A stretch of 35,620 nt of DNA from Desulfobacterales bacterium (GTDB lineage: Bacteria; Desulfobacterota; Desulfobacteria; Desulfobacterales; SpSt-501): assembly GCA_025454255.1 (NCBI GenBank), contig JALOOU010000024.1, forward strand, positions 1 through 35,620, read 5' to 3'. The position numbers were made by a program, and so were the translations under genes. Every line of letters starts with the position of its first letter. Within the stretch, counting starts at the first letter, position 1. Positions 3,393 through 10,433 of the stretch are shown here, piece after piece. The notes under the pieces are model-generated. The model was not told the DNA's origin. It saw only the letters and a list, made by a program, of their open reading frames with translations, and ran no database searches.

Positions 3393-4363
<971 letters not shown>

Positions 4364-4389: not shown

Positions 4390-5568
4390 TCAGCGCACCG
4401 CGGCCGACTTTTTGTAGAGCGGCGAGATCTCGCGTAGGGTGGTCACCACGGTCTTGAGCGCGTTGAGGAACCGCTCCACCTGCTCGGCGGTGTTGTCGAT
4501 GCCGAAGGCGATCACGAGCGTGCCCTGGGCATCCTCGTGGCTCAGCCCGATCGACAGCAGCACGTGGGAGGCCCTGAGGGAGCCGGTGGCGCAGGCCGAG
4601 CGCGTCGAGACGCCGAAGCCCTCGTCGTCCAGCATCAGCATGACGCTCTCGCCCTCGACGTATTTGACCGAGGCCGACACCAGGTGCGGCAGGCTGTGGA
4701 CGGGGTGGGTGTTGATGATGACCTCGTCGAGGACCTGCGGCAGCTCGCGCAGGAATTTGTCTTTGAGGCCCTTCAGGTAGGCGCCGCGCGGCACGATGTC
4801 GCGAGCGGCGATCTCGGCCGCCACCCCCATCCCGATGATGCCGACCAGGTTCTCGGTGCCGGCGCGCTTGTTGTGCTCCTGCACGCCCCCGTCCAGCAGG
4901 GGGAAGATCTTGACTCCGCGCCGGATGTAGAGCCCGCCGACGCCGGTCGGCCCGTAAAAGGTGTTGGCGGCGAAGCTGACCAGGTCGGCCCCGATGTTTT
5001 TGACGTCCAACGGCACGATGCCCACGGAGTCCACGGCATCGGTGTGGAACAGCACCTTTTTGTCGCGGGCGATCCGGGCGATCTCCTCGATGGGCTGGAT
5101 CGTGCCGGTTTCGTTGTTGCCGTGCATCACCGAGACCAGGATGGTCTCCGGGGTGATGGCAGCGGCCACCTCGCCGGGGTTCACCCGCCCGGTCTCGTCC
5201 ACGGAGAGGCTGGTGACGGTGAAGCCGTCGGACTTCAGGCGCCGCAGGCTCCGGATGACGGCGTTGTGCTCGATGTTCGTAGTGACGATGTGTTTGCCCT
5301 TGTCCGCGTTGGCCATGGCCACGCCCTTGATGGCGTGGTTGACGGACTCGGTGCCGCCCGAGGTGAAAACGATCTCCTTGGGGGTGTCGGCGTTGAGCAG
5401 GCCGGCGACCTGCGCGCGCGCCTGCTCCAGGGCCGCTGCCGCCTCCTCGCCGGCTTTGTGCTGGGAGGAGGGGTTGTGGTAGTCGTGGGTGATGGCTGCG
5501 ATCATCGCCTGCTTGACTTCCGGCAGGAGCGGGTTGGAGGAGATGTGATCCAGGTTGACGTAGGTCAT
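4390..5568 (-). CDS. IscS/NifS-like cysteine desulfurase homologue without the PLP lysine
   Basis: This 392-residue protein has the fold-type I aminotransferase layout of IscS/NifS. Retained features are TSGGTESVNHAIKG, His101 in IEHNAV, HTDAV with Asp177, GPTGVGGLYIRRG, the RAGTEN motif, and loop Cys326 in STRSACATG, which corresponds to the persulfide Cys. The cofactor site is not retained. The usual S-x-H-K segment before YGPKG reads AANTFYGPTG, so the Schiff-base Lys is Thr203, the adjacent His is Asn202, the phosphate-binding Ser is Ala200, and the PLP-contacting Gln is Asp180. I read these codons directly at 4951-4980. Known family precedent: Archaeoglobus fulgidus IscS lacks this Lys and is found without PLP, yet binds IscU and supplies a Cys to the nascent cluster. 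It lies 31 bases after the IscU-like gene, in one operon. I infer a structural or persulfide/sulfide-accepting partner of IscU, not a classical desulfurase. Confidence 0.9.
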   Translation of the reverse strand: MTYVNLDHISSNPLLPEVKQAMIAAITHDYHNPSSQHKAGEEAAAALEQARAQVAGLLNADTPKEIVFTSGGTESVNHAIKGVAMANADKGKHIVTTNIEHNAVIRSLRRLKSDGFTVTSLSVDETGRVNPGEVAAAITPETILVSVMHGNNETGTIQPIEEIARIARDKKVLFHTDAVDSVGIVPLDVKNIGADLVSFAANTFYGPTGVGGLYIRRGVKIFPLLDGGVQEHNKRAGTENLVGIIGMGVAAEIAARDIVPRGAYLKGLKDKFLRELPQVLDEVIINTHPVHSLPHLVSASVKYVEGESVMLMLDDEGFGVSTRSACATGSLRASHVLLSIGLSHEDAQGTLVIAFGIDNTAEQVERFLNALKTVVTTLREISPLYKKSAAVR

Positions 5569-5599: not shown

Positions 5600-6115
5600 T
5601 CAGTGTTCTTCCTTGAGGTCGTGCTGGCAGGCCTCGCAAAATGTCACGCCGTCGTCGATTTCGACATCGCAGTAGGGGCAGTAGCACTTGTCGCCGTGGG
5701 AGTGCTCGTGCTCGTCCTTGCGCTTGGGCGCCGGGCGCGTGATGCCGGCCTTGCGGTCCTCGTAGTCCCGGATGGCCAGCTGCAGGGCGTCGGCCCCCAG
5801 ATTCGAGCAGTGCAGCTTGTTCTTCGGCAACCCCTCGAGCGCGGCCGCCACATCCTTGTTGGTGATTTTCTTGGCCTCGGCCAGGCGCTTGCCCTTGGCG
5901 ATCTCGGTCAGCATGCTGGAGACGGCGATGGCCGACCCGCAGCCGAAGGTCTGGAACTTGATGTCGTCGATGCGATCCTCCTTGATTTTGAGGTAGATCG
6001 TCATCATGTCCCCGCACAGCGGGTTGCCCACCTCACCCACCCCGTCGGCATCCTCGAGCGTGCCCACGTTGCGGGGGTTGCGGAAGTGATCCATCACCAC
6101 CTTGTTGTACATCAT
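5600..6115 (-). CDS. IscU/NifU-N Fe-S cluster scaffold with C-terminal zinc-ribbon-like extension
   Basis: This 171-residue protein is built from an IscU domain (about residues 1-125) that assembles Fe-S clusters, plus a tail. The three cluster ligands are Cys34 in GNPLCGD, Cys59 in FGCGSAIA and Cys103 in KLHCSNLGADAL. Asp36, which controls cluster release in IscU proteins, is present. The tail has a His-rich stretch (HEHSH, 136-140) and a CYCPYC...CEAC knuckle (Cys144, 146, 149, 160, 163), suggesting an added zinc or iron site. Ordinary IscU is about 125-130 residues. GGGAGG-like bases precede the first of two adjacent ATGs. It is the first gene of the operon with the degenerate IscS, so the two products probably act as a complex. 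Confidence 0.92.
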   Translation of the reverse strand: MMYNKVVMDHFRNPRNVGTLEDADGVGEVGNPLCGDMMTIYLKIKEDRIDDIKFQTFGCGSAIAVSSMLTEIAKGKRLAEAKKITNKDVAAALEGLPKNKLHCSNLGADALQLAIRDYEDRKAGITRPAPKRKDEHEHSHGDKCYCPYCDVEIDDGVTFCEACQHDLKEEH

Positions 6116-6321: not shown

Positions 6322-9300
6322 ATGAGCCCACCCACTCCCAACCGCCGGACGGCGCGCACCGTTCTTGCCGGAACGCTCGCTCTGCTCGTGGCGCTTTTTG
6401 CGGCCTTGCTGCTCCTGACGCCCGTCGACCTTCGCTCCGCCGGGCTCAGGGCCTTCATCGAGTCCAGGGTCGGCGCAGCGGCCGGCGGGCGCTTCACCTA
6501 CGAGCAGCTGCAGCTGTCCATCTTCCCCCGCCCCGGGCTCACCCTCACCCGCCCCGCCCTCGAGCGGGCCGATCTGGCTGCCGCGGCCGAAGCGGCGACG
6601 GTCGTCCCGAAGCTCTGGCCTCTGGTGCGCGGCGAGTTCCAGCCGGCCAAGATCCGCCTGGACGCACCCGCGCTGCGCCTCAGCGGGGCCGTCTTCGACC
6701 GGCCGGCACCGGCCGCACCCGTCGATTTTTCCCGCTGGAGCTCCGCCGCGGCAGCCGTTGCGACAGAGCGGCTGCCGCAGGTCGACATCGACATCGTCGG
6801 CGGCCGGCTCCTTATCCCCGGTTCCGGCGAACTCACCCTCGACGTCACGGGCATCCGGGCCGGACTGAGACTCTCCGACGGACGCCTGTCGGCCGGGCTG
6901 CAGTGCGAGTCGAACCTCTGGAAAAAGCTCGAGCTGAGCGGTCTTTTGGCGATCGACTCGCTGAAAGGCGTCCTCGAGCTCACGCTTGCGGAGTTCCGGC
7001 CGGCGCCGCTTCTGGCCTGGGGCTTTCCGGAGAGCGCCTTCCAGCTGAGCGAGGGCCGCGTCAGCCTGAACCTGCAGGTGACGTCCGAAGGGCGCCACAG
7101 AGCGCAGGCCCGGCTGACCGGCGACGCCGCGCACCTGCGGGTGCGCCATGGGGGGGCCGAGGCCGAAATCGACATCGACGCCATCGCCGCCGAAATGGAT
7201 GCGGGCCCGGGGCGTTTGAGCGTGTCGATTCCGAAGCTGGTTGCCCGCAGGCCGATGGCCGAGGCCAGCGCGACGCTCGTCTACGACGAGGCGCTCGCCC
7301 CGCGCATCGCCGTGGGCATCGAAGGACAATCGGTCGATGTGGGCGAGGTGCGCCGGACGGCGCTCGCCCTGCTCTCGGGCTCCGCGGAGGCGCACGCCGT
7401 CTTCGACGTCCTGCGCGGCGGCTCCGTGCCGTGGATCGCCGTGAGCCTGCAGGCAGACCGCCTGGAGGAGCTGGGCCGTCTGCGCCACGTCGAGATCCGC
7501 GGCCGAATGGAGCAGGGGCGCCTGTTCATACCGGGCGTAACGCTGGACCTGGAGGGGGTGTCCGGAGACGCCGTCATCGCCGATGGGGTTCTCGAGGGCA
7601 GCCGCCTCAGCGCCCACACCCGCGGAACGAAAGCTCAAAACGGCTCCCTGCGGCTCGGCCTGTCGGGGGCCGACCCGCTCTTCGCCCTCGACATCACGAT
7701 GGAGGCCGACCTCCAACCGCTGCCGGAGATCCTGGAGAGGGTGGTCCGGAACAAAGCGTTTCTCCAGGAACTGCGGCGCGTCGGCCCGTTTCAGGGCAGG
7801 GCCCGCGGGCGGCTCGAACTCACCGGATCCCTTGGCGACATGCAGGTCAAAGTCGATGCCGCGGACCTCGACATCCGCGCGCGGCATGCGGCCATCCCGT
7901 TGCCCATCGCGTTCGAGGGGGGCCGCTTCCAATACGATGAGGCCTCCCTTGCGCTGGAGGGGGTCGACGTGCGGCTGGGCAGATCGAGGCTGCCTCAGAT
8001 GCGGGCGGTGTTGGAGTTGACCGGCTCGCAGCGCCTGCGCGCCTCGTCGCCCTCGGCCGAGCTCGATCTGGCCGAACTGTTCCCGCTGGCCGGCGGCCTC
8101 GGTTCCCCGGACCGGCTCCGATCCATCGAGGGCTCGGTCGCTTCGGGGCCGTGGGAATTTTCCGGAAATCCCGCCGCCCCGGAGAGTTGGGCCTTGGAGG
8201 GCGCCGGCCAGGTGCGCAACCTCACGCTGGCCTCCGGGCGTTTGCCGGAGGCCGTCCGCGTCGAGTCGGCGGCATGGAGCTGCCGCGGGAAACGCCTCCA
8301 GGCGGAAAGCCGCAGCATCGCCATGGGATCCACCCGGGTGCACGCCCTGGCGGGCGAGCTCGACTGGTCGGAAGAGCCCCGGCTGGAGCTTTCCCAAGGC
8401 GCCGTTTCCATAGCCGTCGAGCATCTGTATTGGTTGCTCGACCGGCAGATCGGCCTGCAGGACGCCATCGGGCCGCTGGCGCCGCTGGCGGGAGCGTTGA
8501 CCTTCAAGGAGCTGCACGGCGCGCTGAGCTTTCCGGCGGCGGGCGCGGTTCAAGCGCACCTCAGCGCAGCCCTCGGTGAAGGGGTCATCCGGTCCGAGCG
8601 CCTGCCGGCCCCTCTGGCGGTGGACTCCGGCACCATCCTCTGGAGCGGCAGTTTTCTCGATATCCGGCACCTCGATGCCCGTATCGAGGAATCCGCGGCG
8701 CAGGGGGTGTCGATCGGCATCGACTGGGGCCTGCGCGACTCGATCGCGATCCGGGTCGAATCCCTGCTGATCGAATGCGCAGAAACCTACCCTTGGCTCT
8801 CCCGGCTGCCGGCGGCCGCCTGGCTGCGGCGGGACATTACCGATGTTCAAGGCACCATCGCCCTCGCCGGGCTGCGGCTGAGCGGCAACATGCGCGACCC
8901 GCGCCGCTGGTCCTTTGGGGTGGAGGCGACCCTCAACCACCTGGATGTCGCCACGACGTTTTTGGAAAACCCGGTCCGGATCCGCGACGGCCGGGTCCTG
9001 CTTCAGGAACGCGCAACACCCGCAGGCGAAGCCACCGCCGTCCGCCTGGATGCCTTCCAGGTCGCCACAGGGCGCAACCGCGCGCTGGCCTCGGGAGAGA
9101 TCGTGTGGGACGCCGACAGCGTTTCCGTCGATCTTGCCCTGATCTGCGAATCCATCGTGTGGAGCGAACTGGAGTCTCTCTCCGACCGCTTCGCCCGGCG
9201 CGGCCCGCACGCCAAGCGCACCGTAACCGGCAGAATCGAGCTGCGCGCGGAGGAGGTCAGCCTGGGGCGCTACCATTTCCAGCCGGTCGAGGCCCACGTG

Positions 9301-10092: not shown

Positions 10093-10211
10093 GGGGGGCG
10101 CGATGCGCCGCAGACCGCGCTTGACTTTTAGGAGGACGGCCTAACCATACGCTTGCGGAACGGATGCGTTTGACCCAACCCGTAAGTGACTCTCAGCTAG
10201 GAGGTTCTGAA

Positions 10212-10433
10212 ATGGCTTACACCTGCAAGACCTGTGGAGCGGTTGCCAAGGAGCCCGGGCATCTGTGCGATCCCTGCGGCGACAAAGCCAAGTGCAGCTT
10301 TTGCGGAGCGCCTTCGGCGGACGCCCGGCATGTGTGCAAGGACAAGTTGGCGGCCATGAAATTCACCTGCAGCGGCTGCGGCCGCGTGGCCATGGAGCAA
10401 GAGCACCTCTGCAAGCCGGTGCCGATCCCCTAG
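10212..10433 (+). CDS. Small Cys-rich double zinc-ribbon protein
   Basis: This 73-residue protein starts at the ATG that follows a strong AGGAGG ribosome site (CTAGGAGGTTCTGAA); a longer in-frame start at 10164 lacks one. It carries CxxC knuckles at TCKTC, LCDPC, KCSFC and TCSGC, with further single Cys at VCKDK and LCKPV, arranged as two similar halves. The TCxxCGxVAxExxHLC pattern occurs at both ends. Two metal sites, zinc or iron, are likely. No catalytic domain is present; I do not recognise a named family. A perfect 11-bp hairpin follows the stop. Possible roles are metal storage, redox or nucleic-acid binding, none of which is shown by the sequence. Confidence 0.85.
   Translation: MAYTCKTCGAVAKEPGHLCDPCGDKAKCSFCGAPSADARHVCKDKLAAMKFTCSGCGRVAMEQEHLCKPVPIP

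Follow-up and report, generated by a model that had tools for sequence, protein, structure and literature searches.

The window (the whole stretch of DNA that was analysed, 35,620 nucleotides from a Desulfobacterales bacterium) carries an IscS homologue that lacks the Schiff-base Lys of cysteine desulfurases and is encoded next to an IscU of its own. We hold with moderate confidence that this unit is a desulfurase-inactive IscU-IscS assembly complex, in which Cys326 of the Lys-less IscS helps to hold a nascent Fe-S cluster that is likely built from sulfide. Judged from its sequence, the protein has lost catalytic and substrate residues together and has kept the fold and the sulfur-handling Cys, and it is one branch of a large family rather than a stand-alone bacterial oddity. 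The Lys-less kind is already known from published work on archaea; the bacterial branch and its partners appear to be new. The assembly from which the window comes amounts to 4.11 Mb in 194 contigs and is 87.3% complete, and the nearest named relatives of the window are metagenome assemblies of Desulfobacterales and 'Deltaproteobacteria'.

Gene pair and neighbourhood

The Lys-less IscS homologue (392 aa, ATG start) is encoded on the minus strand at 4390..5568. The gene for its partner, an IscU/NifU-type scaffold of 171 aa (5600..6115, minus strand), is intact and lies upstream on the same strand across a gap of 31 bp, and the operonic arrangement with IscU that had been proposed in an earlier note on this DNA thus stands. 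A convergent peptide (ABC) transporter gene ending at 4363 flanks the IscS side, and an AsmA/YhdP-like gene that starts at 6322 runs in the direction opposite to IscU-IscS; with one neighbour convergent and the other divergent, IscU-IscS is a two-gene unit. Just downstream of the AsmA/YhdP-like gene, positions 10164-10430 encode a small protein of 89 aa in which Cys pairs recur and which has a weak double-zinc-ribbon match below the Pfam cut-off.

Active site and fold

As the earlier note had read them, the codons at 4951..4980 (minus strand) spell V197-S-F-A200-A-N202-T203-F-Y-G206, with Asn202-Thr203 at the desulfurase His-Lys site, and Thr203, Asn202, Asp180, His101, Asp177 and Cys326 had all been placed correctly. 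In an alignment of 95 rows (59 Lys-less and 36 Lys-containing), Lys203 is found in 36/36 Lys-containing rows and in 0/59 Lys-less rows, and the same split is seen for Gln180 (36/36 versus 0/59), which is replaced by Asp in the window protein (codon 180, 5029..5031, minus strand). His202, which is Asn in the window protein, is present in 35/36 Lys-containing rows. A conserved Arg that had been overlooked follows the same pattern in this alignment, being present at position 352 in 36/36 Lys-containing rows and in none of the 58 readable Lys-less rows, and it is Val352 in the window protein (codon 352, 4513..4515, minus strand). The equivalent of Arg352 binds the substrate carboxylate in NifS/IscS. 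Ala200, which had been put forward as a lost phosphate Ser, is the residue present but has no diagnostic value, since Ala is also found in 6/36 Lys-containing rows. Position 203 itself varies widely among Lys-less proteins (T, S, A, P, R, Q, I, V or D), which fits a site without catalytic duty.

The loop (persulfide) Cys326 (codon 326, 4591..4593, minus strand, within T322-R323-S-A-C326), the stacking His101, Asp177 and Glu153 are, for their part, kept in 59/59 Lys-less rows. Position 323, just before the SAC motif, is Arg in 20/21 rows of the window's own type (once Lys) and Gly in 35/36 Lys-containing rows. Unusual loops were encountered in a few Lys-less loci. At L145:1602-2717, which is outside the 59 Lys-less rows, the Cys loop of a Lys-less IscS beside IscU is also gone in an open frame, as seen in one assembly and maybe as an assembly error, and a Lys-less subgroup (L159, L164 and L165) has an odd loop (GASACMSITAKA), with no IscU found in the available stretch.

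The protein matches PF00266 at 239.8 bits, as expected of the IscS/NifS fold, and it exceeds no NCBIfam cut-off among the 25 listed of 37 matched families; its best match there, NifS TIGR03402, scores 429.8 bits against a cut-off of 530.75, and TIGR02006 scores 348.3 against 643.2. An AlphaFold2 model with a mean pLDDT of 92.4 superposes on 4hvk at an rmsd of 1.3 and on 4eb5 at 1.7, with a TM score of 0.97 versus 8tvt and 0.92 versus 4hvk (both by query length). The predicted fold thereby matches human NFS1, Escherichia coli IscS and Archaeoglobus fulgidus IscS, which would make docking on IscU plausible. In the PDB, the window protein finds its best sequence match in a Lys-containing desulfurase that has been solved, along with variants of it, as 9wep to 9wfy.

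From the residues lost, Lys-less IscS is predicted not to desulfurate cysteine. In the window type, the PLP pocket apart from the Lys, Gln and His is mostly retained (T73, H101 and D177 in 21/21 rows, T238 in 15/21), and PLP or PMP may for that reason still bind. Together with E153, likewise kept in 21/21 rows, and the fold kept in the predicted model, this would be compatible with a protein that is still a PLP enzyme with another catalytic base, or one that uses PMP, possibly on another substrate. We nevertheless regard such an enzyme as improbable, considering that the Lys-less rows of the alignment and the three lists of best 120 proteins described below have lost K203 as well as Q180 and R352, that position 203 is so variable, and that A. 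fulgidus IscS is described as inactive in PMC7585200.

Selection, distribution and ancestry

The missing catalytic residues could by themselves point to a pseudogene or a sequencing error, an explanation whose probability we consider negligible. Decay was rejected because the frame is full-length and pairwise omega is 0.05-0.23 in 13/14 pairs, the remaining one being saturated. Omega between the window and eight relatives is 0.09-0.23 in seven cases and not computable in one, with synonymous change being high, and in six close pairs (five of the window type and one of a sister type) it is 0.05-0.14. Sequencing error was rejected because the best 120 listed proteins are all without the Lys, as are 27/50 named-genome loci, the state thus being common to 120/120 of the nearest proteins listed. 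The alignment, the omega values and the loci together bear out the initial argument that the catalytic residues were lost together and under purifying selection, with the loop Cys and the IscU linkage kept.

Lys-less IscS is widespread. The 27 Lys-less loci among the 50 of the named-genome scan are mostly titled Desulfobacterales, Desulfobacteraceae, Desulfarculus or Deltaproteobacteria. The window type occurs in 15/58 close genomes (its own included), and two others (G011 and G049) carry a sister Lys-less type. Across 297 genomes of the phylum there are 42 matches of at least 583 bits; the 34 read residue by residue are all Lys-less (33 of the window type including the window, one of a sister type), the other eight being outside this reading. 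Forty loci, hand-picked down the score list rather than at random and with four of them within the 42, comprise 28 that are Lys-less and 12 with the Lys. With the window protein as query, the best 120 proteins are Lys-less in 120/120 cases (its own protein included). With A. fulgidus IscS the figure is 119/120, from named sources that include Archaeoglobus, Ferroglobus, Geoglobus, Hadesarchaea and Bathyarchaeota, and with a Thermosulfuriphilus-type query it is again 120/120, named sources being mostly Nitrospirota; in this last type the His is kept and the Lys is replaced by Gln (once Met, once Glu). The sole Lys in the three lists belongs to P0122, apparently an engineered A. fulgidus D199K chain. 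C326, H101, D177 and E153 are kept in 360/360 of these proteins, and Q180 and R352 are present in 0/360; being query-selected, the lists show the reach of each type, not how common it is. Several hundred relatives are thus without the catalytic residues yet have the sulfur-handling Cys, and the sister types occur in other Desulfobacterota, in Nitrospirota and in Archaea (the A. fulgidus kind).

The suggestion that a Lys-less clade might exist across Desulfobacterota is supported; the window-type clade has a support of 100 in both trees built without active-site and loop columns. An all-column tree, which included the active-site columns and left out the window itself, separates 90 Lys-less from 48 Lys-containing rows by one branch with a weak support of 39. 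The first column-removed tree, which combined the window and 12 archaeal proteins with 36 of the 48 Lys-containing rows and 46 of 89 Lys-less loci of the all-column tree, and the second, in which ten rows were swapped, both need two changes for the Lys-less label, and starred branches force both state changes in the second. A few Lys-containing proteins fall in the trees between the archaeal and bacterial Lys-less groups. A single origin of the Lys-less state, with archaeal and bacterial proteins in one clade, is not rejected by the AU test (p-AU of 0.353 for the first column-removed tree and 0.272 for the second), although the support of 39 is weak and two changes are needed in both column-removed trees. 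Both of these trees place the Lys-containing 9wep beside the Lys-less branch of the bacteria.

The IscU partner and its tail

The window IscU scores 190.7 bits with TIGR03419, over its cut-off of 187.9, and 172.8 bits with PF01592. It has the scaffold ligands, three Cys and an Asp (Cys34, Asp36, Cys59 and Cys103), with His102 beside the last, and these four ligands are kept wherever they are readable, likewise in IscU encoded beside Lys-containing IscS. In 85/91 loci, the Lys-less IscS has an IscU no more than 0.7 kb away, and none is found in the available stretch at the other 6/91; these counts, like those for the tail and for TusA below, leave out the window itself, five copies of its own region, nine repeat-genome loci and matches of fewer than 200 residues.

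At its C-terminus, the window IscU has a zinc-ribbon-like tail, C144-Y-C146-P-Y-C149 ... C160-x-x-C163 (5627..5686, minus strand), whose pattern is common to other loci. Window-type loci have their IscU upstream, with a CxCPYC...CxxC tail in 65/65. Two of these, L087 (cut by the contig end) and L145 (loop missing), were moved there from the group of other Lys-less loci on the basis of IscU position and tail, and in the case of L145 also of the tree, which brought the window type from 63 to 65 and the other group from 28 to 26. Where IscU is downstream of Lys-less IscS, the pattern finds a ribbon-like tail in 9/20, and L136, L137 and L138 have a near variant of it. None of the 15 IscUs beside Lys-containing IscS matches the tail pattern; nine of them are of the NifU type, longer and with a different C-terminus that also bears Cys. 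This tail may hold zinc or iron. Zinc as such was not retained as an assignment, Pfam Zn_Ribbon_1 scoring 20.8 bits on the tail, below its cut-off of 25, and the IscU model being weak there (block means of 48-73 from residue 131).

Other desulfurases and the SUF system

A second, Lys-containing desulfurase elsewhere in the genome had been asked for, and two such genes are present in the window genome (L001 and L002), namely a Lys-containing NifU-NifS pair on contig C194 and, on contig C62, one more gene for a desulfurase with the Lys. In 13 window-type relatives, 20/20 fetched paralogues have the Lys, Gln and Arg. Given these Lys-containing paralogues, most cells with the window type can, on sequence grounds, probably desulfurate cysteine elsewhere. 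One of the 20 (L172, on G002:C3) has one in-frame TGA, as does G056:C24, and desulfurase-like genes are found in frames of 700-750 aa at G003:C27 and G003:C29; such genes possibly encode selenocysteine-containing or fused proteins. In genome G055 (listed as 97% complete), where the window-type pair lies at a contig end (G055:C85, L087), there is no second desulfurase-like match, which, if the absence is true, would make it a cell without an ordinary IscS.

That Lys-containing paralogues coexist with Lys-less IscS in the window genome and in 13/14 other close window-type genomes would fit a regulatory decoy, which either titrates IscU or tunes the Lys-containing desulfurases by pairing with them. 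This seems quite improbable to us, in the light of G055 and of an adjacent IscU with a tail that is seen in 0/15 IscUs beside Lys-containing IscS, an own IscU with a distinct tail rather suggesting a separate complex.

A search of the window genome (87.3% complete) yielded no SufB/D homologue. Of the 58 close genomes, counting that of the window, SUFBD is present in 0/15 with the window type and in 24/43 without it. Across the phylum, SUF is present in 16/41 genomes with the window type versus 116/256 without, the 41 being the matches of at least 583 bits minus G083 (sister type), with 33 read, including the window, and eight not. The idea that the window type is a clean replacement for SUF thus held in close genomes and failed across the phylum.

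Sulfur supply and proposed mechanism

In sister operons, an additional partner comes into play. A TusA gene adjoins Lys-less IscS in 14/26 sister-type loci, whereas none adjoins the desulfurase gene in 50 Lys-containing loci within 1.5 kb, the search spanning 1.5 kb on each side (less at contig ends) and related loci not being independent. The 14 TusA proteins themselves went into the search profile and therefore match by construction; Pfam TusA was over its cut-off in both of the two sister-locus proteins scanned. Among the loci examined, TusA is found only beside Lys-less IscS. An Rrf2 regulator gene is present in nine sister loci, but also in 11/50 Lys-containing loci; Rrf2, TusA, Lys-less IscS and IscU occur together at L139:895-3208 (Thermosulfuriphilus), L131, L133, L134, L135, L141, L144, L084 and L085.

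In these operons, TusA speaks for persulfide and not for free sulfide. This is the basis of the main rival to our preferred reading, a persulfide relay in which Cys326 would be loaded by TusA, or in trans by a Lys-containing desulfurase such as the two encoded in the window genome, and would pass sulfane sulfur on to IscU. Such a relay would be in accord with the ability of E. coli IscS to bind both TusA and IscU, as stated in PMC2854127 and PMC11302665 and as seen in 3lvj. However, adjacent TusA was rejected as a feature of the window type, where it is found in 0/65 loci (0/63 by rule, plus L087 and L145), and the one TusA-domain match of the window genome lies in a frame of 339 aa on a different contig. 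For the unit at hand we consider the relay rather unlikely, though favoured in the TusA-bearing sister operons.

The desulfurase-inactive assembly complex is the reading that we prefer. By analogy with A. fulgidus, Lys-less IscS would most likely dock on IscU, Cys326 would be offered as a ligand to the growing IscU cluster, and the sulfur source would be free sulfide and not cysteine desulfuration. Locus L145, whose IscS is without the Cys loop and yet lies beside IscU, speaks against this explanation, as do the 6/91 Lys-less loci with no IscU in the available stretch, the retained PLP-pocket residues, the TusA genes of the sister operons and the presence of SUF alongside the window type elsewhere in the phylum.

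Relation to known systems

A. fulgidus IscS, cited in the earlier note as a Lys-less precedent, is a genuine one (PDB 4eb5 and 4hvk). In PMC7585200 it is reported to be desulfurase-inactive and to give the IscU cluster a Cys ligand, and Methanosarcina acetivorans IscS1 is said there to be without the Lys as well. The window pair resembles A. fulgidus IscS-2/IscU (4eb5, 4hvk and 4r5f) in the loss of Lys, Gln and Arg, the Asn at the His site, the loop Cys and the IscU partner, the archaeal IscS-IscU link being taken from the titles of the PDB complexes. The two IscS proteins are 41-43% identical and differ at the Lys site (Asp in A. fulgidus, Thr in the window protein) and just before SAC (Gly and Arg, respectively). 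With the IscS/NifS desulfurases the window protein shares the fold, the loop Cys, His101, Asp177 and the IscU linkage, but unlike them it is without the Schiff-base Lys, the Gln and the conserved Arg.

Two other minimal systems offer partial parallels. The MIS minimal iron-sulfur system (MisS-MisU), described in PMC12442378 and PMC12192291, is likewise just a pair of IscS-like and IscU-like proteins with no accessory genes beside it; it is described with a working cysteine desulfurase, whereas the residues of this site are lost in the window protein. For SMS (SmsCB), PMC12192291 describes sulfide-fed assembly on a desulfurase-free scaffold in an anaerobe with no identified desulfurase. Our proposed complex would resemble SMS in using sulfide as sulfur source, but the scaffolds are unrelated, and the window genome, as mentioned above, yielded no SufB/D homologue. 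In a literature that excludes most subscription journals, no paper on a bacterial Lys-less IscS could be recognised by its title or the start of its abstract, and the same goes for the coupled loss of the Arg, the IscU with a ribbon tail and the sister operons that include TusA.

Implications

On a wider scale, we tentatively suggest that anaerobic bacteria and archaea share a branch of ISC in which cysteine is not the sulfur source: IscS would serve purely to hold the cluster or to relay sulfur, often together with a ribbon-tailed IscU, and TusA would replace the desulfurase step in the sister operons. If the proposal is true, the old question of whether the sulfur comes from sulfide or from cysteine would become testable with bacterial proteins, with the IscU ribbon tail and TusA as two new handles, a family labelled 'cysteine desulfurase' in databases would be misnamed, and the ISC step of Fe-S assembly in many strict anaerobes would need no cysteine desulfuration.
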